In this document: piece by piece, positions 22,600 to 59,500 of the stretch
How the letters are laid out: each line of letters begins with the position of its first letter
Numbering within the stretch: position 1 is the stretch's first letter
Source: Actinernus sp. WN-2022
Taxonomy: Eukaryota > Cnidaria > Anthozoa > Actiniaria > Actinernidae
Direction: 5' to 3'
NCBI GenBank assembly: GCA_030867875.1
Contig: JAOWCC010001501.1
Location: 18,505,524-18,569,523, forward strand
DNA: 64,000 bases
Program-made: the position numbers and the translations under genes
The notes under the pieces: generated by a model
The model's input: only the letters and a program-made list of their open reading frames with translations
Database searches by the model: none
What the model was told of the DNA's origin: nothing

Positions 22600-23890
22600 A
22601 GGATAATAATAATATAATAAAAATAACACTTATATAGCGCTTATCCAAACTGTTCTAAGCGCTTTACAATAATTACAATAGTAACAATCTGAAGTTTAAA
22701 ATTTTTATAAAAACCTAACTAATCTAATAAAAGCACATAAAATATAATATAGAAAATGAAATAGAAAATAGAAAACTCTTTGCTATACTAATGACTGATA
22801 CAAATTTCTAACTTATCTAAAAAATAGACATAACATGTAATATAAAAACATTATGATAAAAATATTCAAGTTACAGGCCCTGCATGAGTTAATTTAAGTT
22901 ATAAGAAAGTTTAAATAGATAAGTTTTTAACCGAGATTTGAATTTCGAGAGACACGAACACTTTCTTATGTTTATGGGCAGTTTGTTCCATAAGTGAGGA
23001 GCTGTAACAGAAAAGGCACGACTTCTTGTAAGTAAAAAGCATTGGATGATCTTAGGTTTCTGGTAGGCTTGTAGTGATTAATCATTCCATTATATAATTA
23101 GGTGCAAGTCCATTTAGTTCCTTGAAGGTTAAAAGTAGAATCTTGAAGATAATCCGTTGTTCTATTGGTAGTCAGTGCAGTTGAATAAGGACAGGGGCGA
23201 CATGATCATATTTACGTGTACAGGATATAAGACGTGCAGCCGCATTAAGTACATATTGTAATTTCTCTGTTTGATTCTTTGGTAGTCCGTACAACAGTGA
23301 ATTACAAGAATCTAACTTAGATGTCACGAATGCATGCACAAGCTTCTCAGTGGTCATGAGTGATAAGTATTTCCTAATACGAGCGATGTTCCTTAGATGG
23401 TAGAAGGCAGATTTACATATGCTCTTAATATGTAAGGACATGGATATCGTTTTATCAAAAAGAACTCCAATATTTCTGGCTGAATCCGAAGGACGTATAA
23501 CATCAGATCCAATATTGAGTGAAGAAAATGATGGCTCTGAATGATATTTGGAGCTTAATATAAGAAGTTCAGTTTTATCTGTATTCAGCTTGAGCTTGTT
23601 CAGAGTCATCCACTGGAGTATATCCGTTAAGCATTTTTCCACACGCAACTTGATGTCTAATTCTTGACTGTTTTTGTACGCGAAAGATGCATAAATGTGT
23701 GTGTCATCCGCATACATATGGAACCGCATATTGTGTATACGTAAGATATAAGTAAGTAAAGCATTGGTCCCAACACTGATCCTTGAGGAACCCCACAAAC
23801 CAAGTCACGGCTCAGTGATGTTGTCCCATTAACGCAGACAAACTGGGTACGCTCAGTTAGATATGACCTAAACCACCTTAAGGCAATGCT
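22600..23890 (-). mobile_element. 5'-truncated LINE (CR1/L2-like), minus strand
   Basis: The minus-strand 3' end carries AAGCGCTATATAAGTGTTAT followed by an ATT-rich tail at about 22600-22650. The upstream part is a reverse transcriptase remnant. It is truncated at the 5' side near 23890. Confidence 0.7.
23172..23880 (-). pseudogene. reverse transcriptase remnant of the LINE
   Basis: On the minus strand the frame gives [17 protein letters not shown] (the conserved PQGSVLGP box). After a frameshift near 23740 it gives [12 protein letters not shown] (YADD catalytic box), then the thumb region to 23172. The frameshift and truncation make it inactive. Confidence 0.8.
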
Positions 23891-29002: not shown

Positions 29003-29557
29003 TCAACTGTAAACAGTCTCTGTGTTGCCAGGTAACACGAGCACTTGAATGGCTTGCGTACAGTTATACACCTGACCGCATGCCAAAGGCTTAACGATCG
29101 GCGGCTCCTTGAAGGCAAATTTACCCTCTTTTTGCTGCTCACCAGAGGATTGTTCACTTTCATCTTTACCAAATTCTTTAGAATCAGATTCTTTCCCCTG
29201 CTTATTCTTCGAATCTGGCGATTCTTTCGCATTTTCTTCAGGCCTCTCGTAAGATTTTAATTTCACGTTTGGCACCGGGAGATGACCGCCGGTCAGCGGC
29301 ATCATGTCTAAGGTGACATCACACGTTGCCATGGAAACCGTTGGCATGGCGATTACGCCGCTATTTTTCCCTGATATCATCCACATGTTTGTATCAACAT
29401 CAACTTCGTATAACAAGTCACGTGATTGGGTTTGGTTTGGGGTCTCTTTGCCTTTGGATACATTAGTGAACGTAACACAGAGTTTACACATTGTTCCTAC
29501 TTGAAGATTGTTGGTTGCTCCAGATGGTTTGACTCTCGACTGGATTGTAAACAGAGT
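29003..29557 (-). CDS. TRAPPC10: TRAPPC10 terminal coding exon
   Basis: Acceptor TTTCAG/ACTCTG, phase 0. It encodes the conserved LLYEVDVDTNMWMISGK and MPLTGGHLPVPNVKL blocks, a Lys/Glu/Ser-rich linker, and the final ACGQVYN...VLVLPG motif usual at the very C-terminus of TRAPPC10. Confidence 0.9.
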   Translation of the reverse strand, partial: TLFTIQSRVKPSGATNNLQVGTMCKLCVTFTNVSKGKETPNQTQSRDLLYEVDVDTNMWMISGKNSGVIAMPTVSMATCDVTLDMMPLTGGHLPVPNVKLKSYERPEENAKESPDSKNKQGKESDSKEFGKDESEQSSGEQQKEGKFAFKEPPIVKPLACGQVYNCTQAIQVLVLPGNTETVYS

Positions 29558-35500: not shown

Positions 35501-38500
35501 CTCCTTGTCTCGCCTAGTCTGAGCTTTGAATTTTCTTATCTGAGCGCGCCTGAGGAAATCTAACCTTTGTTTGCGTGACCAGCATAGTGCAATCTGATTG
35601 GTTCGAATTTGACCTTTAACGCATGCGCAGAAGCCGTCTGACACTGATTAAAAAAAATAATAATAACCACTTGCATTTTAAGACTCGGCGCTGCCACAGG
35701 CAGCCCGAGTAATTATGAAACCAAACTCAAAGCCGTAAAATAATAAAAACGTGCATTAAACTTACATATTTTGTGCCGGAGTCAAAATTTAGAGTCTGCC
35801 GTCATGTCAGTCACATCGCCTTTTAGTTCCAAGTCTTGAACTTTATCGAGGTAAGCCACTATGGTTGCCGGATTGTTGCAATATTCAGTAAACCTATTTT
35901 ACATTCAGTAAACCCGATTTTATATTCAATAAACAGGTTTTATATTCAGTAAACCATTTTATATTCAGTAAAACCGATTTTATATTCAATAAACAGGTTT
36001 TATATTCAGTAAACCGATTTTATATTCAATAAACCCGATTTTATATTCAATAAACAAGTTTTATATTCAGTAAACCATTTTATATTCAGTAAAACCGATT
36101 TTATATTCAATAAACAGGTTTTATATTCAGTAAACCGATTTTATATTCAATAAACCCGATTTTATATTCAATAAACAAGTTTTATATTCAGTAAACCGGA
36201 TTTATATTCAATAGAAACGATTTACGTTCAACGTTTTAGTTCAATAAATTATTCCTTAATATGTTCAATCCTCAACCATTATTTATTCAGTAAACGCCAT
36301 TTATATTCAATACCTATTATTTTATTCAGTAAATTTCATTTATATTCAATAATTTCTGCAGTCCAACATGGTCAGCGGAAGACCAAATTCGTGGGTAGCT
36401 ACTTCGTGTAACGTACACAAAGAGTATTGTGGGAGGTCACTAAACAACAAATATATAAATATATAACTATAATAAATATAATGCTTCTTTAATGCTCCTT
36501 TAGACTAATACAAACCCTACCCCTACATTTAAAAAAAAACTAACCGTCAACTACGGGTTCAATACTCTTTGTGTACGTTACACGAAGTACCTGGAAGTAC
36601 CTAGGAATATTCGTGGGTCACTTTTCGGAACAAGATGGCGGGTGATCACCCAAGCTTGCACGAGATCGAAGACTGAGTGGCGAAGAGAGGGGTTAGTAGA
36701 GCAGTAGCTCCGGGAGTAGCTGCAGTCAGAAGTGTTTCTACTAATGATCTAACTCAGGATTCCTCGAGAAGCTTAGTTTCAGGTACTATGATGGTTCACT
36801 TCTATTTATGATATAGACCGACTTGGCTATCGACACTATCCTCTGTAGGTTTGGCAGTCCATGTCCCTTTATCAAGAAACATAGCTGGAATGGTAGGTCG
36901 TTCCCGTGATCCGCTCCGTGCACATGTGGTAGACATGGCCGGAACGCTGTGTCTGGTTTGTTGTCGCAGGGTCCAAAGCGTCGAAGACTTGGTCACCAAT
37001 ACGTACACTGCGTACAAATCAAAGGTGAAACATCCTGAACTGAGAAAAAGACACTTGAAGTAGCCTGTGCCGACTAGGTGGATCCATCAGAATTTGCTGA
37101 CGATGATAGGAACAGCCCTTGGATGTGAAATCCCTTGGGTGTGAAAGCCTTGTAGGGGACTTCGTGTCCTAGTGTTTTCCCACCTGGGCGAATCTTGAAA
37201 TAAATAAATAAAGCTCTCGGGTAATTCAAGATTATCCTTTTGGGGAAAATGACATCTTGTTTTCCGGAACAGTGATACTATTGTCATGACGCTTTGGACC
37301 CTGCGACAACGAACCAGACACTGCGTTCCCCATGGCTACCTACCATTCCAGCTATGTTTCTTGATGAAGGGATAGTGTAGTGATAGCGAAATCGGTCTAT
37401 ATCATATATATTTGTAAGCTTAAGTGAACCATCATCAGTACCTGAAGATAAGCTTCTCGAGGAATTCTGAGTTAGATCATTAGTGGGAACACTTCTGATA
37501 GCAGCTACTCCTCTCCTTATCCTTCTCTCCACCCCCTCCCCATCTCGTTCTCAATAAGCAAGTCACGTGATACAAATGGCGCGCGAATTTGGTCTTCCGC
37601 TGACCATATTGGACTGCAGAAATTATTGAATATAAATGAAATTTACTGAATAAAATAATAGGTATTGAATATAAATGGCGTTTACTGAATAAATAATGGT
37701 TGAGGATTGAACATATTAAGCAATAATTTATTGAACTAAAACGTTGAACGTAAATCGTTTCTATTGAATATAAATCCGGTTTACTGAATATAAAACTTGT
37801 TTATTGAATATAAAATCGGGTTTATTGAATATAAAATCGGTTTACTGAATATAAAACCTGTTTATTGAATATAAAATCGGTTTTACTGAATATAAAATGG
37901 TTTACTGAATATAAAACCTGTTTATTGAATATAAAATCGGGTTTACTGAATGTAAAATAGGTTTACTGAATATTGCAACAATCCGGCAACCATAAGCCAC
38001 GACACCAAATCCTTCAAGTGCATTGCGAAACGCCGCTTCAAACGACATAGTATGGTAATTTCTTCATGTCATTCCCTTGAGATGTTCATCAGTAATTGCA
38101 GGCGGTGATTACTCGAATATTTTGCATGGCGTTGTCAATACAAAAGTTCAATGGTTCATTAAGTAACCATTCCCTTGAGATGTGCGTCTTTCTTTCATTG
38201 CATTCTTAAAGCGTTTTTGAAGCCGTTTAAAACACTCACAGAACGTGTTTTATCAAGTCTAAAAATTCTCGGGCTTCGCCCTCGAATTTTTAAACTTCAT
38301 AAAACACTGCTGTTCGTGTTTTAAACAGTACGTAAATTGTCGGTTTCGCATTCGCATGAGAAGACATGTCAAACACTCATTGTTCGTCTTTCGAGCTACG
38401 CCTCTCGGGTTTCATTTGTTTTCTCAATATTTGGAACCCCTGATGAAAGACTCCAATTCGTGTTTGACATAGTTCTTGAAAAACGATGCGAAGCGGAGTT

Positions 38501-41500
38501 TTTTAAACTCAGTTCGAGGTGTTTGGATATGTGATAAAACACGGCTGACAGTGTTGTATATTGCTTCTCCAACAAATTTACCATTGAAGAGAAAACGGAG
38601 AAGAAAGTTTGGATAATTTATGCAAGTGTTTCATCACATATCCAAACTCCTTCACGCTTGTGATTTTCTTTGTAATATTCTCATTAATTATTCATGAGTT
38701 TGAGAAGAGACAAGTAACAGCTACCAATAGCGCTGCGCGTGAATGACGTCACGAAAATTAATACCCCCCGCATGACTCAGACAAATTTACCACTTTTCGC
38801 GCTAGAACTTACAAGAATTGACTAGCACTTCAGTTCGTCGTCTGACTATTCTACCAGAAATGACGGCTTTCCTGCATTATATTTCGAACGAGAACCTGAT
38901 GATTGTACTGTCGAACAGTTTAAACGTTGGCTAAAATACAGAGGATTGAAACAAAGCGATAAACGGCGATCTTATCAAGCGAGTTTCGCGTCTGGGGGTG
39001 CAAAGATCGCGCGAAATACAGTGTTTGTATGGGAATCCGATGCCAAATATTTTCCGTAAAATCGAATTTCTGAAATATTCACTGTCTGCAAACTTAAGAT
39101 ACCAGGTAAGAGATTAACTGATCAAAATGTGAGGGATGTAGTTGTACTGGGAAGCGTGCAATCGTGTTTTCAGTTACATTTCGGCTGTAACAACGAGTCA
39201 ATCACTCGATGGCCGCGGGAAAATTTACAGACAAAGGTATGGAATTGGAAAACTGAAAACACGATTGCACGCTTTCCACCATAGCTACATCCCTCAAATT
39301 TGGATCAGTTAATCTTTTACCTGGTATCTTAAGTTTGCAGACAGTGGATATTTCAGAAATTCGATTTTACGGAAATTATTTGGCATCGGATTCCCATACA
39401 AACACTGTATTTCGCGCCATGTTTCCCCGGCTCCTACAAGATAGAGTAGTGGAAATTATCTTGGACTGACCTATTCGTTGCCGTAAACCACGTTTAATAT
39501 AGTCAAGCTCTAACTGAATCCCAAACTTATCTTTTCCCATTGAATATCGTCGTAAGACTTCACCTAAACTTTGAAAAGTCAGGTTTTCCGTAAGAGATTC
39601 ATCGGCGAATGGGAATATTGACTGTATATTGTAGCCAGCAGGTAACATAATATTTGAAATTCTTTAAAATTAAATTCATCGGAGACCAAAACTAACGTAA
39701 TGGCTGGAAAATAGATACCAACTGTGCAAGATTTTGAACAGACTAACAAAGGTACGAGCTAATCATTTATGGTTAGACAAATCTTCACAGACAAATATGC
39801 CCGGAATTTTCTCTGTAATATTTCTCTGTACAAATGATATTTTTGTTTGCAAATTTATAGCTTTGTAAAACAAAATATTACCCTAAAATTAAGCAGTCTT
39901 GCTTTATATTTTGGTGTGCTCTTTCAAGCTATTATATTATGTTTTGCATTTGTCGAGTTTTCAAATTACCTGCAAGATACCCAATGATTCCGTGCGACAT
40001 TTCGGAAAGAGATTTTAAAACTTCATTTGTGTTCGTAAAATAAATCAAAGCATTGTAGATGTACATGAGTCAGTTCGCTTCAAAACTTTATTTCAAATCC
40101 ATAAATTCAAGTAAACTATGGTTGAACTGTAATTCCTTCTCGCTATGTTTACTGGCGGGTAGTGTATAGTTCAGACAAACTCCCCCTTGCATTTCAATGC
40201 ACTTGTCTCGTTATTATTCTGTGCTTTTAAAGTCTCCTGTAAAAACATTTATCCAACGCTGACATTTCTCACTGAGAAGCACTGAGAAAAGATGAGAAAC
40301 TCTGCTAGCGGTGAACCAATCGATGCTTCCATCTCCGAGAGGATATCTCTTTGAGCGATTTATAAAGGTTTTTATACATCTAGAGTCACTCTTACATCTT
40401 CCCCAGCAACAGTGCTTGGTAGTTACCATTTCAGGTATTTCTTCTTTTTTTGATCGAAAAACCTATGAATCATGTTCTAATACGACTCTCAAAGTCACTG
40501 AAATACTGTAAACAGCCGCGTGTGTTTGTCTGAGTTTTGCGGGGGGTCTCGTTTCAGACAATCTATTTTTAGACTTCACGCGCAGCGCTATTCAAGAGTG
40601 ACTCAACATGCACAACACCATGACACAGCCCCTTTAATCCAGGATTAGCGCTAGTCGTGCTTCCAACAACTGGGACCAGGTTTATTTTCCCCTCCTCTCG
40701 ACCCCAGTGCTCTCACGTCCCCGACACAGGCACAGGAAATTCAAACTTCGGGTATTATAGTAGAAGTAGTGCACACAGCGGTCAAACGTCTGCGCATGCG
40801 TCAAAAGTCTTGCAACAACAACATATTCCAAAACAAATTCAAAGCGAGCCGGCGGCCGTCATTGTTCACACACCCGTTTTCAAACCTTGAGAACTTTTTT
40901 GTTAAATTATAAAAAAAATAGTAAACTCACAGATTGAAGTTTGTTCAATTTCCCGTCGACTGTGAAAATAAAAAGCTTAACTTTCACGTATTTTTCTTAA
41001 CTTTTGGGAGTAAAAGTTCACAAGCCGAGTTTTTTTTTAAACGCCGGGTTGCCGTAATATGTTTTAAGGTAATTTTGCTCGGGAAATTCGCGCGGCCGCC
41101 TACCAGACTGACCGTATAAATACGCACGCGCAGACGTTTGACCGCCGTGTGGAAGTAGTGCACCGCGACAAAACGTTATGCTCCGCTGGCCGAAAGAGCG
41201 AAGGCTCTGGAGTTCAAATACAAGTTTCCGAGGTCTTAAATTATAAACGTTTTTTTTAGTAAATAATTTAATAACTTAGTAAACTCACAGTGAATTAAAA
41301 ATTAAGAAAACTTCAACCCGTTACAGCTTAATAATGTCTTAGGCTTATCTTTTAAGTAGTTTTATTATTTTTCGCGAAACATTTCACGTAGCGTGTTTTC
41401 ATTGTATTTATCTGACTCCGACTATACTACTAGGGGTAACTAAGGGTCATTCAAAGTGTCACTAGACATTCTTGTACGTAAAATCCAACTTGATAATCCT

Positions 41501-44500
41501 ATTAGAGATATGATTACATATAGTTATATCGATCTCTTCCACTATGGATTATATATCGTGCCTCCCTCTAGAAATTCTGACTAAGATCGTAGAGCATGCA
41601 GATCCTTGGTCATTCGCAAGCATCTCAAGGACATCGAAACGCCTAAAAGATGCCGCAGCTCTCTCGCGCTACGAGAACACGGACAAGGAGTTCCGCACGC
41701 GAGTACTCACACTAGGTCTTGAGTCCACCCACGACGACGCCGATCGAGACGGCTTGGTCAAAAAGTTCGGCGTCCCCAAAGAGGAAGACTGTTCAGGCCC
41801 CCTAGCTCGTTTTAGTGGACGTGGCAACCTCGACGTCGTTAAATGGCTTATCAATTACTTCCAGCTTACCATAGAGGGTGAACTTGCTTGTTGTGCTCTG
41901 AACAAGGCCTCTACGAATGGTCACCTTGAAATAGTAAAATGGTTCATCGACCACTTCCAGCTTACCATAGATAGGGGATATACATATAATTACGACCCTA
42001 TGGATGGTTTTTTGGAAGTAGATAAATTTGGATACGTTTTCAACATTATAGAGAACGCCTCTATGAATGGCCATCTCGAAATAATTAAGTGGCTTATCGA
42101 GCGCTTCCAGCTCACATCGCTGGAAAGACCAGAAACTTGGCATGCTCTACAAACTGCCTACGAAGGGCGCCATCGTGAGGTGATTGAGTGGTTCGAAAAG
42201 CAATTCAACATCACCCAAAGGATCACTAGATATTCTTACACCTAAAAATCCAAAACTTGAAGTATATGTTAAAGGAATGATTACTATACTGTATATTGCC
42301 ACCAAATGGTATTAGTATATATTCTTTATTCCACAATACTAGTTTACGTTGTCATCTTAGTACACATTAACGCCATACAGATCAAACATGTCGAACGTAG
42401 CTGCCGCCGCCGTAATAACTTGTGATTGGTTGATGAGAGGGAAGGACACGAAATGCACAAAGAAGATTTCGAAGACAACAAAGTTCTGTTCCCAGCACAA
42501 CTACCAAATCTCAAAAGGCTGTGCCCCATATGTACCATGCTCGAAGTGCGGTAAAGGATGTCGTACTGATTACGAGCTTTGCTCAGGATGCGACCGTCTC
42601 ACCATCAAGGTGAAGTCTTCCGGTGTCTATATAAGACGCGCTAAGAAGTCCAGCAAGAAGCTAGAGGATCCAAGAAAGGAGGAGCCAAACATGGTGGAAC
42701 CGGAGGTAGCATTGCCCGCAGAACCAAGAGTGCTGGAACCAGTGGAAGGTCTTGGAGAGTCTCTCAACCATGCGCTCAACGAGGTGTTGGCTGCCTTGAG
42801 GAACGAGAAGGACGCTTAGGAATAGCCACGAAAAAAGAAAAAAAGAAGAATGAAGAAGGTCGTTGCGTGGCCCTCTTCATTCTTTTTTTATTTTATTTTA
42901 TTTAAACATATAAACATCTATAGTTGTATCATGGACGAGCTAGTCAGCTTGTTTGGTCCTGGAATTTGTAGAAGCCTGAATATCAAACCACAAGTGGAAC
43001 ATATTAACACCAGTGAAACATGTTCTGATTGTCTCTGCCCCTTGGAAATACAAGGAACGGAATTCGTGTGTCCCACATGTGGTCTTGTTTCTGAGGTCGA
43101 ACCATGTGAAGAAACTAAGATCGATATTATTACTACTCGACTGCGTATAGTAGGTCCGGATGGATTTCAGTATCAAAGTGATCTAGACCGAGCAAAACCA
43201 AAGCAAAGCGATGATGACATAGAACTGAAACGACGAACGCTCCTACAAGAACTACGAGCATACAACACTATTTACGAACAAAGTTATGCCCTATCGTTCC
43301 CTATGAACACGTTAGGAATCGTAGCCGACGCATTCACCCAAATAATGAAAGTTTGTCTCAAGCGTAGCGATGCTAAGAAAAATATTTTAGCTGCTCTACT
43401 CTACCATGCATGCATACAATGTGGATTCGTCCGATCTAAAGGTGAGGTCGCTCGCTTCATGCAACTAAGAAACGAAGGCATCCATAGTGGAGAGGTCTTC
43501 ATACGTTCTCTGTGTGACGACGATAAGATTGATGTAGACTTGGATGCTGAGCGCCTAGTTCCTCACATTGCAACGACTTTCCTACAACTAGATCTTGTAG
43601 GAGTACCTAGGGACGTTCAACAAATAGTCCACGAGGTCGTTACTACGGCAATGGAAAACAATATAGGCCCAAAATCAATGCTTAAGACGAAAGTCGTTGG
43701 AGCAAGTTACGAGGTGCTACGTCGCTCCGGATCGTCTATGTCTTTTAAGGATGTCGTTAAGCGATGTGGCATATTTGGAAATGCGGTCAAGCGTTTTGTC
43801 AAGGAGTTGTCTTCTTACCATTCCCACTTCGAACCAATCTACACTAGACATAGGCTAACTAGCAGTAGGACTTGGCAAAGTGAAAGTGCGAACCATGTTC
43901 GTTCCTTTCATAGGAAACGTTGATTCTTACATTCCAAGTTTTTCTCGCATTTCCTTTTGCACTTCTTGCTTGAGTTCGGCTCGAACCCGATCCGTGCTTT
44001 TTTCACCTATGGAAGCCTTGCGACGAATTTCAGATCTCATGATCTCATACTTATTCGCTTCGTTCAGGATGAGACTGTATTCGGAGTCGGATATGTTTTC
44101 ATCGCGTAAGGCCTTCGATACTAGATCGCGAATCGTATTGATTTTTGCCTTTGCCAACATAGTTGTCTTTTCATGCTTAGAAACCTTCATTCCTAACTTT
44201 TTAGCTCCAAGGGTCGTAGATGCTGAAATTAATCCACATAGCCCACCAATAACTCCAAGTGGTAGACCAATCACTATTCCAACCCCAGTTAACGCTGCTC
44301 CCAATCCAGATCCAGATAAGATCACAGATAGACCTCCAGTTACCACTGCGATGCCATGAACTATTCCTTGAGAACGTGCATATTTCTTGCGCACACCTTC
44401 GTAGTGCCTTTCTTGAACTTCTATGTCCGAAAGCGTGTCTCGGATTGTTTGCAGTCTAAAGTTCTTTCCAGTGTCACTAGCAATCTGTGGATAGATACTT

Positions 44501-47500
44501 GGTGCTGATGGAAACGGTTGAATCGAGTCGCCTTCCATTGTACGTTATACATATAACTTATTCAAGCTTCAACACGTACAGTATGGGTCGACCACGAAAG
44601 TCTATCAGATTGCCTTTCTCATCGAGAATTGTCAGACGAAGACTGCTTCGTATCGTACCTAGAGCTTTGACATCTAGAGGTCGTAGTGAGGCATACGTCG
44701 TTTTCATAAATCTATCGCCTCGGATATGTATTCTACTTAGGACTTTAGATTGCTTTCCATCTTGAATCGAGAATCTGGAATCCACAACGTCGCAGCAGAT
44801 GTACACTATATCGATTCCATCTTGGATGGACACTTCGTGCGAACCTACTTCTAGTTGCTTAGCGCTCCCATCTTGATTAATACCCAGCAGTTTGCAGAGG
44901 TTTCCACTAAGTAGGATCGATTGCTTGACATCTAGTTTCCAAGCCCTCCTATGAGGGGGTTTCTCGATTCTTATGATGTCAGCACTAACTGCAGGCGTAA
45001 AGAAGTGTCGAAGGCTCCCCATAGTATGGTTTCCCTTAGAAATTCGGTATGGAAACATCACACCATTGACATTCCAATGAAAGCTCCCTGGCTCTTCTAG
45101 GTTCCACCAACTATTCTCAATAGTGACCTCGACTAGTGAAACATTCTGTATGAGAATAGGGTTGTCGAAGTAGACAGTATGGTCGGCCAATGTTGTGGTG
45201 ATATATAAGAGAACCATCTTATATGTTGAAGGTATAACTATATGTATGTATAGCTTCAACACGATGCCACCAAAGAAGTATCAGTTCGAGGATAGACTCC
45301 ACCATTCAGGATTCATTCCGTGGCCTAAGGAACAACAAAAATTCGCTCTCACAGCACAACAAAAATCTGATGTTCTCACTGAGTTCAACAAGGGGGTAGC
45401 ACCACGCAACGCAAAAGCTTTCGCTACCTTTCGGAAGAAGTATCCCCATGCCGACTACTCGAAATTCTATGCTGAGACAAATGCCAATGATATACAGGAT
45501 GAGTCGACCTATAGAACTAGGATTACCTTCAAAGACAGAAGTGAGGAATGGTTCGTCGACGATCTCCACATTCCAACAGATGTACAGACCAGGTTAGATA
45601 AGGCATTAGATGTGGGGGGTTTCCCAACTACGTTGATACTAGACATGAGTGTGAAATATCCCATTACAGCAGTTCCTTCTACTGAACCGGCACAAGATAT
45701 TGATCTCACTAATCTATTGATATATATCACACCAAAGCAGAATTTCAAAGCTGGCGTTCCAAATATATTCAGGGAGATCGTTGTAAAGCATACAACAAAA
45801 AAGGAGTCCCAGCATTGGTTGGCCGGTCCGGATTTCCACTACTGGCCTCAACAACTTAATTTTGCAACGTGGTGTGCAACTTCCGGATGTGGAGTGTCGT
45901 TGTTTGACCCCACTTTCAAAACGTATCCACCAGTCGTTCAAGGGTTCCTACGATTCCACGTATATTTCACGATACGAAGAATTCTACGTGAACTTGGTGG
46001 TACTCATGGAGTTCCTTTACCTGGTGAATCTCATTTCAAGCAAAGGGATAACCTCTATAACAAATCAGCTCTTGAGAAATTGTGCATCGAATTCGGTATA
46101 TCTCGAACACCAGACTTTCGGTGGAATGGCTTAGGAGACGTCTATGTAAACTCTCATGGAAAAATGGTGAACTATACGGAGAAGTATGCACATAATACTT
46201 CGTTCTCTGCAAAGTGGCCTGGGGGTGACTTTAAGTTTCCTGAGGAGAGTCGTACTCCGTATCAGTTTTCTTTAGCGTACATTGGCAATAACAACGGTAA
46301 ACAATACAATTGGTTTACGCCACCAATCGGAAAGGGTTTGACAGATGTTGGATTGGGTAGGTTGAATAGATCTGTCGAGGCTTTTGGACATTGCATACTT
46401 GGTGCACAAGCAGATCTGAACGACTCCATCATACATAGCCATAACGTCAAAGAAAAGTTTAAGAGCTTAGTCGAAGATGCTATTCTCGAAAACGATTTAG
46501 TGGTGAGCTACAATAACTATCTTACTGCTATAACGAGGACGCATAAGAGGCTCGATTTAGCAATAGCTGTAGATGTGCGACTTTTGCCAAGCGATCTAGA
46601 GTACTATCTTGGTAAGAAAGATGGTTATAAGAATCCAATCCCGAAAGCCACGAAAGATATGAGGCTAGGCACTAACGCCATCAATGTAGAAGTCAAAGGA
46701 CACCAACCTCTTCTTATGGAAGGATCATCAGATAAGAAATCGTTGCCGCATCTCGAGACGCACAAGAAACAAGTTCCTGTACCAAACTCACCTCTTCTTA
46801 TGGAAGGATCATCAGATAAGAAATCGTTGCCGCATCTCGAGACGCACAAGAAACAAGTTCCTGTACCAAAGGCAAAGGCAAAGGCAAAGGCAAAGGTAAA
46901 GGCTGTCGTCTCACAACATGAGATTAATCTCGCAGTGACATCCATTGCTGCAGCTGGAATCGCATGGACGTTGTTTCGTTAACGGCGTTTGTATTGCTCC
47001 ACTACGAAGACCACTGCTGCTACGATTAACAACCAAAGGTTGTTTGCTAAGACTCCAACGACGTCAGCAGCCATACTGAATATGAAACTCACAATTGGCC
47101 CAATCATCTTAGGTAGAATCTCCTCTAACTTTTTGCCTATTGCTTTTAAGCCTTTGACAGTTGTTTTAGCAGCTGCTTTGGCAGCATCTCCAAATCCCGG
47201 TACTATCGCGGAAACTGTCTTCGTCAGATTGGAAACTATTACGCCGATCACAGTACTTACCGCAACTACCACGCTAATTATACTGACCCCATACTTCTTA
47301 AAGATGATTCTTATACGATCCCTAAGTGACATCCGTTCTACTATAGCTTCTGCTATTTGCTCTAGGACTGCTTGCTCCTCCTGAGCGGTCTTTATTTCAT
47401 TAGTAGCGTTTTCTTTCTGAGTTTCGGTAGCCGTAGGGTCTTTGAGTATTCCTTCATTTTGTTCGACCCTCTCACTCAATTGGTTTTGAGCTACTATGAC

Positions 47501-50500
47501 TTCTTTTAACATTTCTTCCCTCGAAGGTCCTAAGACTCTTTTGAGATCTTTTCCCATCTTCTTATATAACTCACCTTTCGTGGTGGTCAAAGGAATAGCT
47601 TTTTCTTTACTTCCATACTCTTTGATAAAGACTCTACCATCAGACATGGTTGCAATCTCAAGCATACCTCGAATTCCCACATCGTGGTATTTTTCCCAGA
47701 CAGTCTCGAACATATCCTGTCTTGCATTTTCCGATAAACCCTGTTTGAAGATCACACTTCGATCGGTATACTTTGGGATTTTCTCTTTCTCCAGCCTCTC
47801 CAGGATTTTTTCATTTTTAGAAACGTTCGAGCCTTCCGAGTCGAAGAGTTCATCGAAGTACTCATCATCTTCTCTAGAAAACGAGGTTTCCTGATTCTTT
47901 GGTCTAGCACCTTCTTTGCCGTAGTTGCGTCTGGTTTTCATTGGGACCATTTCTCCTGACTCTTCTGGAAATATTGCATCCCACTCCTCATCCACATTGA
48001 TAGTATCATCTTTATCGTAGTCTCCACCTTCATCAGTTCTTTCATCGGACCTACCCTCAGAGGCCATGTTAAACATATCTATATATATAGTTATATTCAA
48101 CATGATCTCATCAAAGTTGGATCCCACACAAGTACGAAGAGAGCCTCATGCACTCAAGGCTCCACGAGACTTGTATAGGAAAACTTTCACTCGATCGTCT
48201 GCCAATCCAGGTGAGACTCTATACGTAGAAGTCCCAAAGCTAGCAGAAGATGTAGTACTAGTACCTGGTAGCTTAGCGCTATTGGGCGACATCGTACTAT
48301 CTGGTGGACATGCGAATAACAGAGTCGTTTCGAACGTTGGACGCTGTTTGGTCATGCGTAGAATCTGTAGGATGGGAGCTGAAACAGTAGAAGACCTTGT
48401 CAGGCCAGACCTCCTACAAACATACTCCGATGTGTACCTATCTACACAGGAGAGAGAGTCTAGAATACAACAAGGTATTCAATCAGAGAACTTGAATAAG
48501 CTACGATCGAAAGCTGGTGACGCAAGTACTTCATCTGCTGCAGACAACGCGCTCCTAGCTGCATGTGGTTCCAAGTATAGGATTCCATTAGATGTTGACA
48601 TTCTGACACAACATGGAGTTCTATATCCACATGCCTTAGAAAATACAATTACATTCGAGTTGACTCTAGCGGCTGCCAACGAGGTAGTAATTGGATCGGA
48701 TACGACGAAGATAGGTACGTACCAACTTACCAACATCCAACTAGAATACGAAGCAATCAGGAACGAAACGCTGGCTAGTAATGCACTTCACAAATATGAA
48801 ATAGGTACTGCATTCCTATACAACTACGCTGTTCACTTCAAAACAGTAGATATCGCTAAAACCTCTGATACTTTGATATCTCAAAACGTTAATGTTCCAC
48901 GACGATCCTTTGCTGGACTGCTTCTACTATTCATAGATCCACCTACCATTGGCACGCGAGATAGTGAAGCATTCTCGAATCCAGATATATTGAAGGTAGA
49001 AGTAGATGTCAATGGGATTCCCAACAGACTCTTTCCAAGCGGCATGCTTCCCCTAGATTTCTGGGAGGCTGCAAGAAGCTGGTTTGGTACACCCAATACT
49101 TCTATGACTCCAAAGAAGTTCTTTGAAAATAGATTCTCTATTCTAATCGATTGTCGCACAGCAAAAGATTCCACCGTTCATGGTGATGGCTTGGCACAAA
49201 CCGGCAGTGGAAAGGACATCGACATTCGCATACATAGAACTGCTAAGGGAAGTGGAAATGTGAAAATGCACATCTATGTCCTTGCGGATGCTCAGGTCAC
49301 GATATTGAACAGATCTCTGCAGAGTATATTATACTGATGGATTCTCTCGTAGAGCACGTACCGTTCAACGCACTCATAGTCGGTCCAACGAATTGTGGGA
49401 AGACTGCGTTTCTCATAGAACAACTTCGTGGAGCATTTCGTGGTAAGTTCGATTACATAGTACTGATTTGTCCTACGTATGCCCACAACAAAACTTATCG
49501 TGGATTCGCAAATCGAGATCCTCATTTCTTCGTCATATCGCCACCACAAGATGCCATTGATGCTACTTTGAGTATTTGCGCAACGTTTTGGTCAGGTACC
49601 AATACTCTATTGATTCTCGATGATTGCGCCGCATCGAAGGACGTCAAGAAACGAACTGAAAAGCTAGTGGACTTAGCCTTTTCTGCACGACACATAGGGC
49701 TTTCCGTTTGGGTGCTGTCCCAACAACTAACGAGCATATGTAAACCCTTCCGCGAGAACGTAGCTATCGTAGTAGCGTTTCATACAGCATCGGTCGTAGA
49801 TGGTAAAAAGATATTTGAGGACTATGGAGGCTCACAAGAATGTAAAGAGTTACGAACGATACTTGGATCCCATAAGTTCGCTCGCATGTGCTTCTGTCTC
49901 CGCCATCCTTTCGAGGTAGTGTTAGAGCTCCCAGCATCTATAACATATTATCATGGATAGTAAAGAAATACTCGAGATATTCGGTGAGGATGTAACAGGC
50001 CCACCACCAACCGATCTAGACGTTACGTCAGACAATCGCGAATCACTTTCGATCTTAGCCGCAACAGGCGTAACGAAAGAATACTTAGGTAAGAACTTTT
50101 CCCTAGGGGACATCTCTAGGCTTCCCGAGAAAGAGGTAGACAAATTGTATAGGAGGTATCAGGCCGTCCTAGCTCAGCAAGTAACAAAAGGCTTAGTCGA
50201 CGGTGTGACGCGTCTAGCTACCCGCCTAGTTGCCTACCTAGTACCAATAGATTCTCAAGAAGCCCTGATCAAGGACCTACAAGAAGACCCTCTAGTCCGC
50301 AACGAAATCAGTGCTGCAACTGGCCTACTATCACTCAAAGCAGGTCGCCTTGTAGCTCTAGCTAGCGTCCTATTCCACATATCTGGTCACGTAGTCATTC
50401 CTGGAACAACTGTTGAACCTCCACATATACCTACTATATCGAATCAAGATGGAAGGACAGACGGATCAGATAACTGCGAATCCTCCAACGACTGTACCAA

Positions 50501-53500
50501 CTAAGAAAGGAAAAAATCCAAAGCGTGTTGCAGCAGGAAAATTAGCTTGGGAGAAGGTCACTGCCCGTGCAAAAGAAGCTCAAAAGATGGAGATAGAACG
50601 TGAAAATGAACCGTCCAAAGAAACTGACGTAGAGAAAGGTCGGTTCGAAAACCTGACTATCCTCGCAGTCATCGGTACTGGCGCTACATTGTTTGGCACG
50701 TACTTTGCGTACAAGAAGTATGTAGATGGCAATAAGCGTGTTGCCGCCATTAGCACGATACAACCTGCAGCTCCGGCAAAGCCAACGGCACTAGACATGG
50801 AGTAACACTTAAAGACTCGAGACCATAGTAGTATATATCTAGATGGAGAAGGAATTGACGAAGACGGCAACCGATGCAGTCAAAATCGTTGGACTCGCTG
50901 CTGGTATTGGGTGGATCGTAAAAAAGACTACCAAGGAATCTATGCTTAGCGATCCTTCTTCTTCCCTAGTGAATTACGCAAAGTGGACTGCCGTGATACT
51001 TGGTAGCTTATACGCAAAGGAATATCTTGAGAAACAACTTGAGAAAGAAAAGCCCAAACCCAAACCGTAATGGCGGCAGCAATTGGAATGGCCATCCTCG
51101 GGGCTATATTGAATGCAACGGCATTTACTGGTGGTGGCATACTAGCTAGAATGATTGGAAAGGGTGATATGGATGCAGAACGAGAGAGACACAATAGGGC
51201 CATCGAAAAACTAGCAAGCGAAACGAAAGCCTATAGAATCGAACGTCAAAGACGATACGACCATGCACAAGAGCAGGAAGGTCTTGAACGTGACGCATAC
51301 AACGCTCAAAGAGATACCAACGAAGCCTTAGTGCGATCCGATAAGTTACGTAAAGAGCTAAAACGGCTCAAAGAGATGAAAGAACCCCGCTTATCTGACT
51401 ACTACAAACCCTCAAACAATCAGAAGACTGGTGAGTTGCTCTACGTTGGTGGTGGAATGTTAGGCGTTGGATACGCTATTAGTAAATGGATATAGAAACG
51501 TACTAGGTACTACTAGTAAGCTACTACTAGCTACTAGTAAGCTACTACTAGCTACCCTTAGCTACTACTAGCTACCCTTAAGCTACTACTAAGTTACTAG
51601 TAAGCTACCCCCTAAGCTACTACTAGCTACTACTAAGTTACTAGTAAGCTACCCCTAAGCTACTACTAGCTACTACTAAGCTACTAAGCTACTACTAAAA
51701 AAAAAAAACGGAAAAAAGGAAGAATGAAGAGGGTCACGCAACGACTTTCTTTATTCTTCCTTTTTTTTCATCTGTTGAAGGTTGGGACGTATAGATGTAT
51801 GATGGATTCTAAACTTGCGAATATCTTCTATGGGCCTATGGGCTATTGGAAAGGTCACTCTGCAATTGGCAAGCTATCGGTAGCAGCGAAAGCATCAGAA
51901 GACGTGGCTAGGAGTTGGTTGGAAAAGCAATCTATGTGGCAAATATATCTACCACCACCAAAACACATTCCACGACCACATTGGACTGTATCGAAACCAA
52001 ATGAAGTCCACCAAGCTGATTTGATATTTCTACCACACGATCGTCCTGGACGTGGAAGGAAACTATATAAGTATGCATTAGTGGTAATCGATGTAGCTTC
52101 TCGATACAAAGAAGCCGAACCTTTGGCATCTAAAGATAGTGGTGAAGTTTCTGCGGCATTCGAACGAATCTATAAACGTAGTCCACTCGAATGGCCAAAG
52201 ACGTTGCAAGTAGATCCTGGTAGAGAATTCATGGGACGTATGTCTGAAACGCTAGAACTACATGGTACGAAAGTTCAACGAGGTGAGGCTGGTAATCATA
52301 GAGCGCAAAGTTTTGTTGAAAGAGCAAATAGGACTCTAGCTGAGAGATTGTTTGGATATCAATATGCACAAGAGATGGTACTTACTTCGGAAGGATCAGA
52401 TGAGCGTAGTAGAGAATGGGTAGTTCGTTTACCAATGGTTATCAAAGCCATGAACAGTGAGGTGACTAGGTTGACTGGTAAAGAGCCTTCGAATTCTGTA
52501 GTGGCGCAACAAGTAGATCTGAAGACTCCTACGTATTCGCGCACCGTTGGATTGAGAGAAGAGCGTCTACCATTCGACGTTCTAGTTCGATATCTTTACG
52601 CACCAGGAGAATTGGAAGGAGGTGAAAAACGTAGAGCTACTGATCCTGTGTGGAGTTTGCAGATATACACCATTTCGCGAAGTGTAGTATCTTCGGGACA
52701 GCCTGTGCTGTACTACCTTGCGAAGCGAGAAGGGAAGAAGGATGCACCCAAACGTGGATTCGTTCGTGAAGAGCTACAAGTCGTTCCTAGGGATACGGAA
52801 CTACCACCAAAAGGAATTCTGTTTGTACCTAGACGCTAGACAGCGTACTCTATTGGCTCGGTGTGGATTCCATCGGGAAGAACTCGTCTTTTGTCGTAGT
52901 AAGCCGATAACCCAAGCTTCCATTGGTCGTAGGTTACCACACCTTCTGGCAATAGGCGGAAGCCTCGGTTATTCGCTACGTCGATACTACCCTGGAGGGT
53001 TTCTTTGAATCGATCCCACGAAATGTCGTTGTGCCGTCTAGACATACCTTTAGCGGAATACTTCTTGCTGCCACCTGTATCGACGTAGTAGGCTTTCGAG
53101 CATAGGGCAATGGCGCGATGTCCTTCGAATTCGAGTTTGAAGAGTCCTGGTGTACGACTGCTCCATTCGTCCCAAGCTAGCCATTCATTCCTTTCGGCTT
53201 CGAAATCTTCTCGCAGTTCCGGTCTTACAACCTCATCGAGGCTATTTCCTGAGATGGCAATGTAGGCACTGTCTGTGTCCATCTGTATATATTCGAAATC
53301 ATTGCGATCAATGTACTTGTCGATGAAGTCATAGTAGAACTCAAGCATACGCAGCTTTGCGAGCTGGTACACAGCGATACCTACTTGGAAAGGCCGTTTG
53401 ATTCGGATCTGGTCTTTCCTACTCTCTAGTTCGTATGCCTCTCCAATCTCTTCTAGGTCTTCGAACCAAACACTTCGCAATGCCTTGTCCACAACCTTCT

Positions 53501-56500
53501 CATCTTTTGTATAGGTGACCTTTGTTTGGCGGCCCAAGTCTTCGAGCAACTTTCCATAGGCGCTGTTTCCTAGTAGCTTGAACACATCTGCCAGCAAAGC
53601 CTCACCTTTGTCTTCATCTCCCAGGCGTCGCGCCTCAGTGACTTGGTCCACGAACCATCCGAAGATTTCTTTGGGTTCGTAATCTATCGTGCGGTAGACA
53701 GCAGTGATCACTGCGCCGTGATCTACATACCAAAGTAGAAGAGGAGCATAGAGTAGCAACTTCTTTCCAGAGAGACTTCCAACTAACTTCTTTTCCTCGC
53801 TGAGCTTTCTACCAGTCTTCTCAAGGTAGGCTATCATTTCTGGAGGGATTGCTTCTTTGGGGATTTTCTTGTTGTAGAAGAAGGGGGGCATCTCCTCAAA
53901 TTCCTTCCACAATTTCTTTGGTATCTCGATGTCTACTTCTGCATATCCAAACCACGTTCCACCAAGTAGACATTCAACGAATCCTTTGGTGGCTGGACCT
54001 GGATCGTCATAGTGCACAACCTTTTCTTTTCCACAAGGCATTTCGAATTCCATGGTAGAAAGATATAGGGCGTTGGCATCGTATCCAAGAATCTTACGAC
54101 AAGTCTTAGTTCCTCCCTGATGACTACGAATCTTAGTTTTTCCCGCTTCGTGGAGTCTGGTGAACACTATGCTTGGACCTCCCACTACAGCGTCTTTCAG
54201 CATGCGGTAGGCTTCCTTACTTGGAGCGTACATCTCAGCTCCCCTTTCTACACTACCTCGAAGCAGGAACTGTAGTGAGACTCCTGGGATGGACACTGCG
54301 TCTTTCAGCATGTCTACTCCTTTCTCGTGATAGAAATCTCGCATCTTTTCGAGTGCCTCTAGGAATGGAACTACATCTAGGTCGTTGTAGTATCGTAGCC
54401 AGTCTGCAAAGGTTTTCATTCCTTTGTCGAGAAAGGTGCACTCACAGTCTTCGAACTCTGACATAGATAGTAGATGTTCTCTTTTCAACTTCGAACCCCA
54501 CTCTGGATAGTCTGGTAATCCAATGTGATCCAACTTGTCTGGAGAATCGAACCACTCATATGGGAAGAAACTCTTTTGCAACTCACAGCCATAGGCAGCG
54601 ACCCAACGTTCATAAGAAGTTCCGGGTCCAAGGTAGTTGATCACATCAAGGAAACGGAAATCTGGGGTCAATAGGAACATAGTGGAATTGGCTTTCTTTG
54701 CTACCAGGATCTTTGAACAGGTGTCGGCAATGATTCCTACGAAGTGCTCCCTGATCAGATTAAGATCGTACCTGCCAGAGTTGAATCCCACTACTGGAAC
54801 TTGGCTGATCCATTCATCGATCTTCGCTTGTTGTTTCTTTGGTAGGGTGTCAAAAGAGAATTCAGGTGTCTTGGGGCAGAACTGTTCCACAACGACTTCT
54901 TGGATTGTCTCTGCTCTTTGCTGGAGTTCTTCGACGAAGGCTTCGATGAGTTCTTTTGGATTGCGTCGACAGATGTGGGTTGACTTTCGATTGTACGTGT
55001 CGGCAATTGATACTGATATTGGGACATGGACGTTTTCGATGGTCAGGTGGTCTGTTGGTTGTCTTCCTTTTGTCGTGTCGAGATAGGCTTCGAAATCGTA
55101 AACTATGAAGTGTGGGTAGACAGTTTGTGTTGGTGTGGGGACCGGTTTGTTTTTCTTCTTTGTGGAGCAGCCCCAAGCTTCCACTACTGTATAACCGGCT
55201 CCTTGTAGCTTTGCCGTTCTTTCACAGGTCTTGAGATAGAGCCTCCTTTCCCTAGGAAAACATTTCGGGCAGCCATGGAAATAGCATCCATGAAATTGAA
55301 AGATGGTTTTCGAAATAGGTTCGTAGCCGTCGACCGGCGCTCCTTCTATCCAATGCTCTCCACCATGCCCACAAGCTGCATGATGAATGTGTTGTCCAAT
55401 CCTTTTGGTTTCGCGTTCCAACCAGCATAGAGCGACTTTGTTGGCTGTGCTCTCTGGCCAGAAGGCTTTTTCGTATGCCGACTGGGGTACTGTAATTACT
55501 TTTCCGGGGCAAACAATCTTCGTTTCGCCACGCCTGCAACGATCTGCATGGCGGTGAAGGTTCGAGGCTTTTGTGAACCGTTGCTTACAATCGTTGCATA
55601 CGTAGACACTCCCTATCTTGTCGATGTTCTTGATGTAGAAGGCATGTCCTTCGTATATCCCAATCGTCATCGTATGCTTGTAGTGAGCTGCATGTCGCGT
55701 CAGATGCCAAGCGCCATCCTCCGTGGGTTCATACACCCGAATGCCGATTCTAAAGTGCAACTCGACTTCCTCCAGCTGGTCTAAGGAAGTTCTGGGAACG
55801 TCTTGTGTGAGCGCTGTCAGGCGATAGAAGTGCTGGGCAAGTTTTCGAGCTTTGACGCAACACCTATCTACTCTTGCTCCTTCATGCATGGCAAGGCAGC
55901 GCCAAAGACATAGGTTGTCGCCATATCGATCAAGGGCAAGTATTCCTCTCTTATAGCGAAGCCATTGGGGCAGTGGACCTGTTCCCAACAGAAGCTGACG
56001 ATCGATCACAACTTTAACATCCACATATATCCAACGAATGAAGGCCCATTGGGTATTTGGGCGATTGATGTTGTCGGGATTCAAACGAGCTGTCTCCTTG
56101 CTATTGACCCACTCTTCTGCATCTTCTAGGATGTTCACCCATGGAGAGCCTGGGACAGTCTTGGAGAATAGTATCACGCGTCCGTCATTGACATTGCGAA
56201 TGCGATAGGTGTAGCTGTAGCGCAGATAGAAGCTGGTGTTTACCTTTGCAACTAGCTTTTCCATGATCCTAGGGGTCAAATCTCCTGCCACACCTTGGAA
56301 GAAGCGCCATCGGATAGTACGGCGACCTATCTCCATCCCCTCAAGCATTCCATCTCTCTCCTCTAGAATAGCACCTGCCTCTCGAGCTAGACTCCGTGGA
56401 AGTGGTTCACTACGTGGTCTCACCATTCTCCCTTCGATATAACTATGTGTTAGGATAGCTTTAACAGATACTCCAAATTTGGATTTTATGTGTAAGGATG

Positions 56501-59500
56501 TTGCAGCGATATGACTATATGTAATTATATCTCTAATAGGATTATCAAGTTGGATTTTATGTACAAGCAATCGATGTCGATATAACTAGATGTAATCATA
56601 TCTCTAATAGGATTATCAAGTTGGATTTTACGTACAAGAATGTCTAGTGACACTTTGAATGACCCTTAGTTACCCCTAGTAGTATAGTCGGAGTCAGATA
56701 AATACAACTTTTTCTTGTGCAACAAAACTCAAACTAGCGACCACTAAAATCGAAAATATTCTTGCACAAGGGGCGTCATGAAGTGGATTTCTGAATTCAC
56801 TTTATGACGCCCCTTGTGCAAGAATATTTTCGATTTTAGTGGTCGCTAGTTTGAGTTTTGTTGTGCAAGAAAAAGTGGTATTTATCTGACTCCGACTATA
56901 CTACTGGGAGATCAGACGCGTGCGGTTCATCAACAGCGCATGCGCGTGACGTTTTGCCGCGGTGTGTAGTAAAGATAGCCTATGGAGAGGCTGGCTAGGT
57001 GGTACTTACGAATGAGTTGTCTCTGTGCATAGCTAGGGCCTTAATAGCACAACAGTCAGGAGTTATGAGTTCAAGGGATTCGATGTACAGATCCACAGGG
57101 TTCACCCCAGAAACGATCGCCTGCACGAACCGTCTGCAACAACATCAAATACATACATCTTGTTATTTTATTTTATTGTTTGTATATGTAAAAGAGTAAT
57201 TTTGTTGCCGTCTTGGTATATTTACGAGTCAGGCCCAAAATTTGAAATTGTTTATTCTATATACGATAGCTAACACACAAAAAGTTTATTTTCGTTTACC
57301 TTACAGCTCTGTTTGAAGAAACTGTCTTGAAACCAGAAACTAACAGCCTTTTGAATGAAAAATATGTTTTCGCGTGCTAAATTACTGAAACAGCCCCATT
57401 TTGAATGGCTCAAGCGCTTACATAACCTTTTAGGTGCTGAATAAACCTATGCAAACCTGTTTGTGACCCGTGTAATACTCTCGCTTATTATATGGATAGT
57501 GTTTTACTGAGATATAAACCACTCATAGAACTCATACGAAACTACATCCGGGTACTGAGTAGCGTATTCTCCATATCCTGACTAGTGAAAATATCGATGA
57601 CGTCACGTTTACCGCCTTTTGAACTACAAAGATGGCAGCAGGTTTGTGAAAATCACAGAGGAAGAATGTAAACAGCTTAAATGAGCTGCATGACAATGAA
57701 TATTCCGAGCACAAAAAAACAAATACGATCTAAACCTCGCTAAAGATTTTCTCGACTGCAACGAAGAGACAACAAAACCCGATAAAACTTCCCAGAACAG
57801 CTAAGAAAGATCACGAAGAAGTTTGTACTGACAGTAAGTAAAATAAATAGATAAGAGTTCTTAACTCAGTTTAATTGTCGATATAATAAAAAGAAAATTA
57901 CACGGTGGTTTGAAGATATGAAGTTTATCCTCGAGAGTCGAAAACATTTCACGAGTGAGCGCAGCGAATAAACTTCATCTTCTCACCACCGTGTAATATC
58001 CTCTCTATATTTGCATTCGCTTCATTGATCATTGATCGTATTTGCACTCGAAAACACCAAGTCATATAATAATATCAAGTATTACTTGCTGTTTCTAGTA
58101 GTACATATGTTGTTTAAAGTGCATATGAAGCGAAAATTAAGTTTAGCTAATGTTAAAATGCTTTCGAAATGAGGAATGACATTTTCCGTTTGTCAACATC
58201 TCATCTCGTTTCAGAGATATTCAGGTTTTTGTAATATGTAAATGAGATGACCTATGACGTCATATTGTTTGCATTACCTGGAGACAAATCACAAAATGAA
58301 GAATATCTCTACAAGTATTGGATAAAAACTATTGAAACTTTGCACATATGTGGTACTATGGAAAATGCACATCATTGTGCAAATTATTATGTTACCATGG
58401 AAACACTCTGGCCCCAGGCTTCCACTACAAATAACTCAATTTTCCCTAAATTCTCCTTTGTCAAACACAATTTTTTTTATGTGGGTCCAAAATAAGATTT
58501 GGAACAATGTAGGCATTGCATGTGAGTAGTTTAAGCAACTTATTTTTGTAACAAGGAAAGAAATTGGAATTTTATGTTCAAGGTGAAAGGTGCGTGGGGC
58601 CATGAGAGTTTCCATGGCAACACCATAATTTGCACAATGATGTGTACTTTTCATACATGTGCAAAGTTTCAGTAATTTTTATTAGAGATATTCTTCATTT
58701 TGTGATTTGTCTCCAGGCTATGCAAACAATAGGGCGTCATAGGTCATCTCATTTGCATATTACAAAAACCTGAATATCTCTGAAACGAGATGAGATGTTG
58801 ACAAACGGAAAGTGTCATTATACCTCATTTCGAAAGCATTTTAACAATAGATCAACTTAATTTTCGCTTCATATGTACTTTAAAGTCTATGACGGTACTT
58901 TGTCGGCGCTGCATGCCATTTAATTAAGCGAAGACCATTCAATGAGCTGTCAATTTACCTGTCATCGCAGCAATGCAACATGTGTTTAACGGTGAACGGG
59001 CGGTGGAATGAACATGTTAGCTCCGATGTCGACGTCGGCTGTAACCATTTGCAACAAAACGACAGCTGGAGAAAAGGAGCATTCGTATGAAAAGTTAACA
59101 TCTGATGTCGCAGTTGAGTAGGCCTTTTAAAATGGCGTGTATACAGTGCTTCCCCGTCAAATCACTCAACTGAACACTGGAATAAAACAAAACCTCAAGA
59201 GCAAGGGAAAGGTCTAAAAGACAGGGACTATATGACAGCTATATCGACAGTGGTAGAAACAGAAACTGGTAGCACTACAGGAGTATTTGCCACTGGGACT
59301 TGGAGGGGTAAACATGTACAGCTATTTCAAAACCGTTGTCGGTCAATTTCACTCAAGCCAACGCGACCACACCGAAAGGGATTATGGGAATTTGGCAGCA
59401 GATTTAAATTCTGAAATCGTCAAGTGAAGCGGCCCTGTCATTTGTTCTTGCTTGCTTGATTTAAAATAAATGTATACATTTTGTATCATTTGCCGTTGTA

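Follow-up and report, generated by a model that had tools for sequence, protein, structure and literature searches.

Does a Polinton lodged in an animal gene bring its own transcription initiation factor with it, and if so, for which promoters and with which polymerase would that factor work? The question is raised by a 64,000-nucleotide (nt) stretch of contig JAOWCC010001501.1 from the actiniarian Actinernus sp. WN-2022 (the window, with all positions counted from its first letter), where an original prediction, made from the sequence alone, placed a TFIIB-like gene within a Polinton. Our reading, to which we give a probability of roughly 0.6, is that the product is a TFIIB-fold initiation factor, a standing part of a Polinton family, which brings RNA polymerase, most likely the RNA polymerase II (Pol II) of the host, to promoters of the element. 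The analysis establishes the TFIIB fold and domain order, the conserved position and linkage of the gene, purifying selection, and a promoter-like signal shared among genes of the element.

The open reading frame (ORF) is open from an ATG at 42931 to a stop at 43923, giving 330 amino acids (aa); an in-frame ATG further upstream would give 357 aa, and the ATG at 42931 is most likely the start. The gene and its parts are as follows:

42931–43923, + strand: TFIIB-like gene, 330 aa, recognised from the ORF, profiles, predicted structure and genome copies
42899–42930, + strand: promoter-like segment of the gene, a weak TTTAAA box and then CATCTATAGTTGTATC just before the ATG
43021–43080, + strand: zinc ribbon (C31, C34, C47, C50), aligned to the TFB zinc ribbon
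43096–43206, + strand: linker, residues 56–92, at the position of the TFIIB B-reader/linker
43207–43860, + strand: two cyclin-like repeats, residues 93–310, from the predicted structure and from profile and structure alignments

The two features named in the original prediction are both present: the ribbon C31-x2-C34 ... C47-x2-C50, with all four cysteines at least 90% conserved in an alignment of 35 sequences, and two predicted cyclin-like repeats, for which the block means of the predicted local distance difference test (pLDDT) lie between 82 and 98 across residues 91–310. An N-terminal four-cysteine zinc ribbon followed by two cyclin-like repeats is the make-up of the TFIIB/TFB family. The linker carries a motif of its own family, RLRIVGP....Q.DLDR; alignment to TFB is loose in this region, and it is by its position that the linker appears equivalent to the B-reader.

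The assignment to TFIIB is borne out by profile, profile-profile and structure comparisons, all of which agree and do so through the zinc ribbon and both repeats. With a profile built from four sequences, E values of 1.7e-59 or better are reached by 33 proteins, three of which had gone into the profile, and 1.6e-18 by one more; since the profile finds relatives, and since the genomic copies stay full length, the ORF is more than a product of chance. Structure alignments to TFIIB/TFB chains are at 10–18% identity. For its alignment to TFB the family was taken without P0034 and P0029, and 22 of the 35 family members match Pfam TFIIB at E 1 or better, the best at 9.2e-10. The zinc-ribbon family VLTF3, the alternative against which the prediction was set, gains no support: it is absent from the four Pfam hits of the window protein, a missing profile hit that alone does not exclude it, and from the matches listed (25 of 56 families) for the 35 members; the A2L zinc ribbon profile is matched by two of the 35, at best with E 0.059. 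VLTF2 and VLTF3 were not detected outside Nucleocytoviricota, according to the accessible part of one study (PMC11253617).

In a tree of 49 proteins, from which P0029 and P0022 were left out, the family (32 rows) stands on one side of a branch (100/99), beside the P0034 group, and is set apart from archaeal TFB and a mimivirus-like pair (100/98). The window protein groups there with P0026–P0028 (94/81), the program warning of long branches; in a smaller tree its neighbours are not fixed. The tree that the prediction had called for was built with archaeal TFB and mimivirus-like TFIIB; eukaryotic TFIIB is not in it. Scans of IMG/VR with the family profiles (A1, A2), the P0034 group (A4), the mimivirus-like proteins (A3), the polymerase and the element protein p595 confirmed no relative; these are weak negatives, because two short peptides were used per alignment and six per single protein, and because A3 also came back empty. 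A tblastn search of a phage collection found nothing, and the TFIIB-like protein has no match in PHROGs.

The gene lies in an element of about 15.3 kb that is framed by 131-nt inverted repeats, 99% complementary, and that combines an rve integrase, a family B DNA polymerase and an A32-type ATPase, all Polinton hallmarks; the prediction that it stands among Polinton genes is therewith upheld. The rest of the element reads as follows:

41402–41532, + strand: left terminal inverted repeat, 131 nt, 99% complementary to 56577–56707
41544–42245, + strand: protein with an F-box and ankyrin repeats, encoded at the Polinton's left end (Pfam F-box 1.1e-6, Ank_2 6.1e-11)
42388–42819, + strand: Cys-rich 143-aa protein, directly upstream of the TFIIB-like gene, with no significant Pfam match
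43927–44538, − strand: 203-aa protein with a hydrophobic stretch, present in both Polinton families described here
44558–45217, − strand: p234 (219 aa from the chosen ATG), 29% identical to a family B homologue
45225–45260, no strand: promoter-like and near-palindromic site flanked by p234 (−) and p595 (+), recovered in each of 10 further copies
45264–46982, + strand: p595, 37–42% identical to its family B counterpart
46979–48067, − strand: p382, a conserved Polinton protein, 40% identical to its family B counterpart
48068–48101, no strand: promoter-like and near-palindromic site flanked by p382 (−) and p423 (+), recovered in each of 10 further copies
48102–49337, + strand: p423, presumably a capsid-protein candidate
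49337–49960, + strand: A32-type packaging ATPase (Pfam Pox_A32 E 2.8e-11)
51802–52839, + strand: rve (retroviral-type) integrase (Pfam rve E 6e-10)
52836–56426, − strand: family B DNA polymerase (Pfam DNA_pol_B_2 E 7.3e-11)
56577–56707, − strand: right terminal inverted repeat, the aligned partner of 41402–41532

For several further proteins of the element no database match was significant. We take p595, p423 and p234 to resemble Polinton capsid proteins, the first two as candidates for the double jelly-roll capsid protein and p234 as a minor-capsid candidate. Cnidarian capsid genes outside the main Polinton cluster are described in the available part of an earlier study (PMC10120064), which would fit the cnidarian host supposed in the original prediction. 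No protease was matched by Pfam among the scanned element ORFs, and none of 13 element ORFs (a 130-aa ORF at 50413 being left out) matched an RNA polymerase subunit or TBP. The Cys-rich 143-aa protein may be a partner of the TFIIB-like protein.

The scan of the host genome (1.39 Gb) shows that the gene is a regular constituent of this family. The copies scored were the best 121 of 2946 loose first-look candidates for the TFIIB-like gene and the best 117 of 6409 first-look candidates for the integrase, so that the results speak for close relatives only. All 121 TFIIB-like copies are full length at 95–100% identity, and 120 have no internal stop; in 20 of them, sampled at roughly every sixth row and read for 7.5–11 kb downstream, a full integrase (97–99%) and the polymerase end follow in every case. 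A reverse sample of 20 of the 117 integrase copies (L129–L148), taken regardless of TFIIB, has the TFIIB-like gene at the right place in 19 slices, at 81–95% identity and in 18 as one open frame. Among the same 20 slices the 143-aa Cys-rich protein is found in 19 (46–96% identity), the 203-aa protein in 19 (95–99%, two partial), the F-box/ankyrin gene in 18 (30–51%) and p234 in 17 (43–84%). Identity is at least 98% for every one of the 117 integrases and extends across the whole query in 116 and across residues 3–345 in one; because the F-box/ankyrin gene and p234 differ strongly while the integrases do not, the elements are mosaic. The F-box/ankyrin protein may be cargo that varies between copies.

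The TFIIB-like gene is under purifying selection. Among 25 copies, from which L081 (identical to the window), L087, L088 and the indel copy L091 had been removed, 50 non-silent and 36 silent changes were counted where 71% were expected to be non-silent (ratio 0.57, p 0.008); the signal sits in the changes shared by several copies (32 non-silent, 26 silent, p 0.008). A more diverse set of 27 copies, made up of the window, the 18 integrase-anchored copies with one frame and eight earlier ones, with the split copy L137 and with L138, whose slice has no gene, left out, gives a mean ratio of non-silent to silent substitution rates (dN/dS) of 0.52. Constraint is strongest where TFIIB touches the polymerase, dN/dS being lowest in the linker (0.24), 0.40 in residues 1–55 including the zinc ribbon, and 0.62 and 0.59 in the two repeats, differences that carry no significance test. 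An earlier ratio of 0.34 from 15 sequences was discarded, the set having held duplicates (L081 equals the window; L087 and L089 are one place).

A promoter-like signal is shared by genes of the element. The best 10-letter motif in 11 upstream regions is TGTTGAAG-like and lies 26–40 nt before the ATG in the clearest copies; its likelihood is 39.3 versus at most 31.7 in 80 shuffles and at most 32.1 in 80 flank sets, with 100 restarts each. The first motif run had been unequal, with 120 restarts for the real set and 40 for the controls; at width 14, tried in that run only, one of 100 flank sets scored as high as the real set. The polymerase gene was excluded, its upstream region resembling the terminal-repeat region already used for the first gene. 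Weaker signals come from other counts: a k-mer scan of the upstream regions was unimpressive after allowing for the many words tried, exact GTTGAA..TATAG has four matches where 1.23 would be expected (a count reached in 4 of 100 shuffles, weak alone), and ATAGTTATA, when one mismatch is allowed, shows a mild excess in the window (36 versus 23.3, reached in 1 of 100 shuffles). ATAGTTATA occurs as a perfect copy in the left terminal repeat and with one mismatch in the right.

The signal is also conserved between copies. Upstream of the TFIIB-like gene, CATCTATAGTTGTATC is exact in 17 of 19 copies, window included (counted from printed rows); the box upstream of the 203-aa gene is present in 18 of 18, and that of p234 in 8 of 8 (out of 11 regions, from which two ended by the slice end and the mis-anchored L140 were dropped). 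The two near-palindromic sites between divergent genes were searched for in 10 further copies chosen by integrase; the search required the outer boxes, and the result therefore shows presence and a conserved middle. At the p234/p595 site, nine of the 10 are letter-identical to each other, though the adjoining p595 start is of five types. A motif shared ahead of several genes suggests that the element steers the transcription of its own genes.

From these observations a mechanism is proposed in which the cyclin repeats would sit on the element promoters (the TGTTGAA-type box and TATAG), probably together with host TBP, while the zinc ribbon and linker would dock on RNA polymerase. The polymerase would be host nuclear Pol II, proposed on the ground that the scanned ORFs of the element yielded no RNA polymerase subunit. 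Once made, the factor would direct the host polymerase to the element's own genes; feedback is possible, because the factor's own gene has a TATAG element and a weak box. The freedom from host promoter recognition foreseen in the original prediction would then follow in part: the element's own promoter-like signal speaks for it, and the independence itself is something we infer.

Several observations weigh against this proposal. The linker has no recognisable PEW motif of the B-reader, which the TFIIB of a second element family (family B, below) and archaeal TFB do have, and the window protein reaches 18.0 bits for Pfam TFIIB, below the curated cut-off of 23.6; because of this score, membership is claimed only as a divergent, TFIIB-like lineage. 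The start codons that define the upstream regions were set by hand. Only five of the 11 regions carry an exact TGTTRAA, a number that rises to 7 once a single mismatch is allowed, and a TATAG at 70 nt or less from the start was seen for 7 of 14 genes, the two divergent pairs accounting for four of them. The upstream regions of family B have no significant shared box. No TBP-like gene was found in the Pfam scan of 13 element ORFs, and the pairing of the factor with the motif is a presumed one. The constraint on the gene is only moderate, and single-copy changes (18 non-silent, 10 silent; ratio 0.74, p 0.28) are not significantly depleted of non-silent ones; the weakness of this last signal is what would be expected of copies decaying after insertion.

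A search of the host genome with the Pfam TFIIB model gave 150 scored matches. Four are in host genes, which from a reading of the exon sequences appear to be TFIIB on contig C1706 and Brf1 on C635; about 100 others are intronless ORFs, mostly 325–376 codons long, a number counted by hand from the 150 rows once the four in host genes, a doubtful one and the second repeat of any ORF already counted had been set aside. Six slices (L172–L177) represent what is here called family B, which is AT-rich, with a different gene order, two p234-like genes and a more canonical TFIIB. In L172 the family B TFIIB, of 321 aa, reaches 69.1 bits against the Pfam TFIIB model and 8.7e-18 against human TFIIB. It shares 37% identity with P0040, a protein judged from its sequence to be mimivirus-like, and is barely similar to the window protein; of 200 bootstrap trees, 43% have a branch that unites it with the mimivirus-like pair, too few to place it there. 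A p595 homologue stands beside the TFIIB in all five copies read (L172–L176; 37% identity in the two compared), and L177 has homologues of the 203-aa protein (50%), p382 (40%), p595 (42%) and p234 (29%). Integrase, polymerase and ATPase had no match in about 8 kb of one family B copy read in two slices (L173, L177). Judged from these sequences, the genome also houses a related, Polinton-like family whose TFIIB belongs to another lineage, and such factors would therefore have been gained or swapped more than once. The fuller proposal, that element-made TFIIB reads an element-specific TGTTGAA/TATAG promoter, also in compact bidirectional form, on the host polymerase, and that two families hold different TFIIB lineages gained or swapped more than once, is accordingly broader and is offered tentatively, at somewhat less than even odds.

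Other functions for the protein have to be weighed against recruitment of host polymerase. The factor might instead serve the RNA polymerase of a giant virus infecting the same cell; the element would then resemble a virophage, lying quiet in the genome until activated in a viral factory. TFIIB is a giant-virus marker gene (PMC12638062, in the part available), and the mimivirus-like relationship of the family B TFIIB points the same way. A helper virus would, however, supply its own TFIIB, and the copies are scattered over many contigs of an animal-type genome, so that we hold this to be unlikely. Less likely again is a decoy that binds TBP or Pol II and dampens transcription of the host or of rival elements without starting that of the element, as a TFIIB fold without a clear B-reader motif, and repeats more variable than the zinc ribbon and linker, could indicate; the shared promoter-like signal of the element argues against it.

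The fold may also have been put to a different use, for example bringing the DNA polymerase to the terminal repeats, both of which hold ATAGTTATA; yet the left copy also closely precedes the first gene, and internal genes have related TATAG sites upstream of them, and we consider such a reuse improbable. Hardly credible is the view that the gene is a non-functional pseudogene captured from TFIIB or Brf of the host. The host does have TFIIB- and Brf1-like exons, named as above by their sequence, from which a copy could derive; against this, 120 of the 121 best-scoring copies have no stop, the protein groups with metagenome and assembly proteins (in a tree without eukaryotic TFIIB), and purifying selection already disfavours the dN/dS near 1 that a pseudogene would need. 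Recruitment of the host polymerase to element promoters is thus the reading that we retain.

Polintons, or Mavericks, are considered close to the origin of many DNA viruses of eukaryotes, and as described they share with the present 15.3-kb element the integrase, the B-family polymerase, the A32-type ATPase and the terminal inverted repeats; unlike it, they have no reported TFIIB in the literature found. No report of TFIIB in a Polinton was found in the open-licence literature, which agrees with the prediction that none belongs to the described core, absence from print not being thereby proven. Giant viruses usually have RNA polymerase subunits of their own, whereas none was found in this 15-kb element, and the window lineage branches apart from the mimivirus-like pair (100/98). 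Nucleocytoviricota nonetheless likewise have a TFIIB encoded by a DNA virus, as the prediction had noted. An example is C315R of African swine fever virus (ASFV), described as a TFIIB homologue in the accessible part of PMC11458487, after which a relative from Elysia marginata (P0005, 36% identical to the window protein) is named by its source.

The closest parallel in mechanism is Chrysochromulina parva virus CpV-BQ1, for which the available part of the source reports two TFIIBs and a TBP and proposes redirection of the host polymerase by virus-made factors (PMC12085832), the same mechanism as proposed here; CpV-BQ1 is a giant algal virus with a TBP as well, whereas the present element is a Polinton. 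Thaumarchaeal integrative-conjugative elements carry TFIIB genes, according to the part seen of PMC6563490, and mobile elements with TFIIB are therefore not new as such; like the present one they are integrated, and unlike it they are conjugative, have archaeal hosts and lack Polinton genes. Poxvirus VITF-3, in the excerpt available an atypical TBP/TFIIB-like pair (PMC12917281), likewise represents virus-encoded, atypical TFIIB-like promoter recognition; it uses a viral polymerase and a TBP-like partner, neither of which was found in this element. Archaeal TFB and eukaryotic TFIIB share fold and domain order with the window protein, which differs in its own linker and C-terminal motifs and in the low structural identity given above. 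Virophages are small relatives with shared promoter signals and depend on giant-virus transcription, unlike the mechanism proposed here. The zamilon virophage has no encoded transcription factors, as we understand the passage available (PMC11464507).

The element lies within a host intron, as had been predicted, because exons of TRAPPC10, both on the minus strand, flank it:

29006–29491, − strand: host TRAPPC10 exon, C-terminal part (Pfam TRAPPC10 E 6.7e-16)
59832–60239, − strand: host TRAPPC10 exon, Ig-like part (Pfam Ig_TRAPPC10 E 2.8e-12)

A search for a target-site duplication at the element ends gave a 5-bp TTTTC match, which is within chance, the Polinton hallmark being 6 bp. Just beyond the right terminal repeat, at 56675–56908, lies a palindrome with two arms of 115 nt, at the outer ends of which the tip of the terminal repeat recurs; copy L140 has a similar palindrome, of different letters, at its other end. 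Beside the element, at 35860–37994, is a cluster of long inverted repeats of up to 390 nt and 98% complementarity, and a reverse transcriptase fragment is found at 23175–23798 on the minus strand (Pfam RVT_1 E 1.8e-5).

With a TFIIB fixed in a high-copy Polinton family and a conserved promoter-like signal, the expression of Polinton genes becomes a testable question. A TFIIB as an integral part of so small an element, in which no RNA polymerase gene was found, is relevant to the question of how giant viruses acquired initiation factors, and the presence of different TFIIBs in two element families within a single genome suggests that selection has favoured such a factor repeatedly. If the proposal is true, redirection of the host polymerase, proposed for a giant virus, would also be the strategy of a 15-kb integrating element of an animal.
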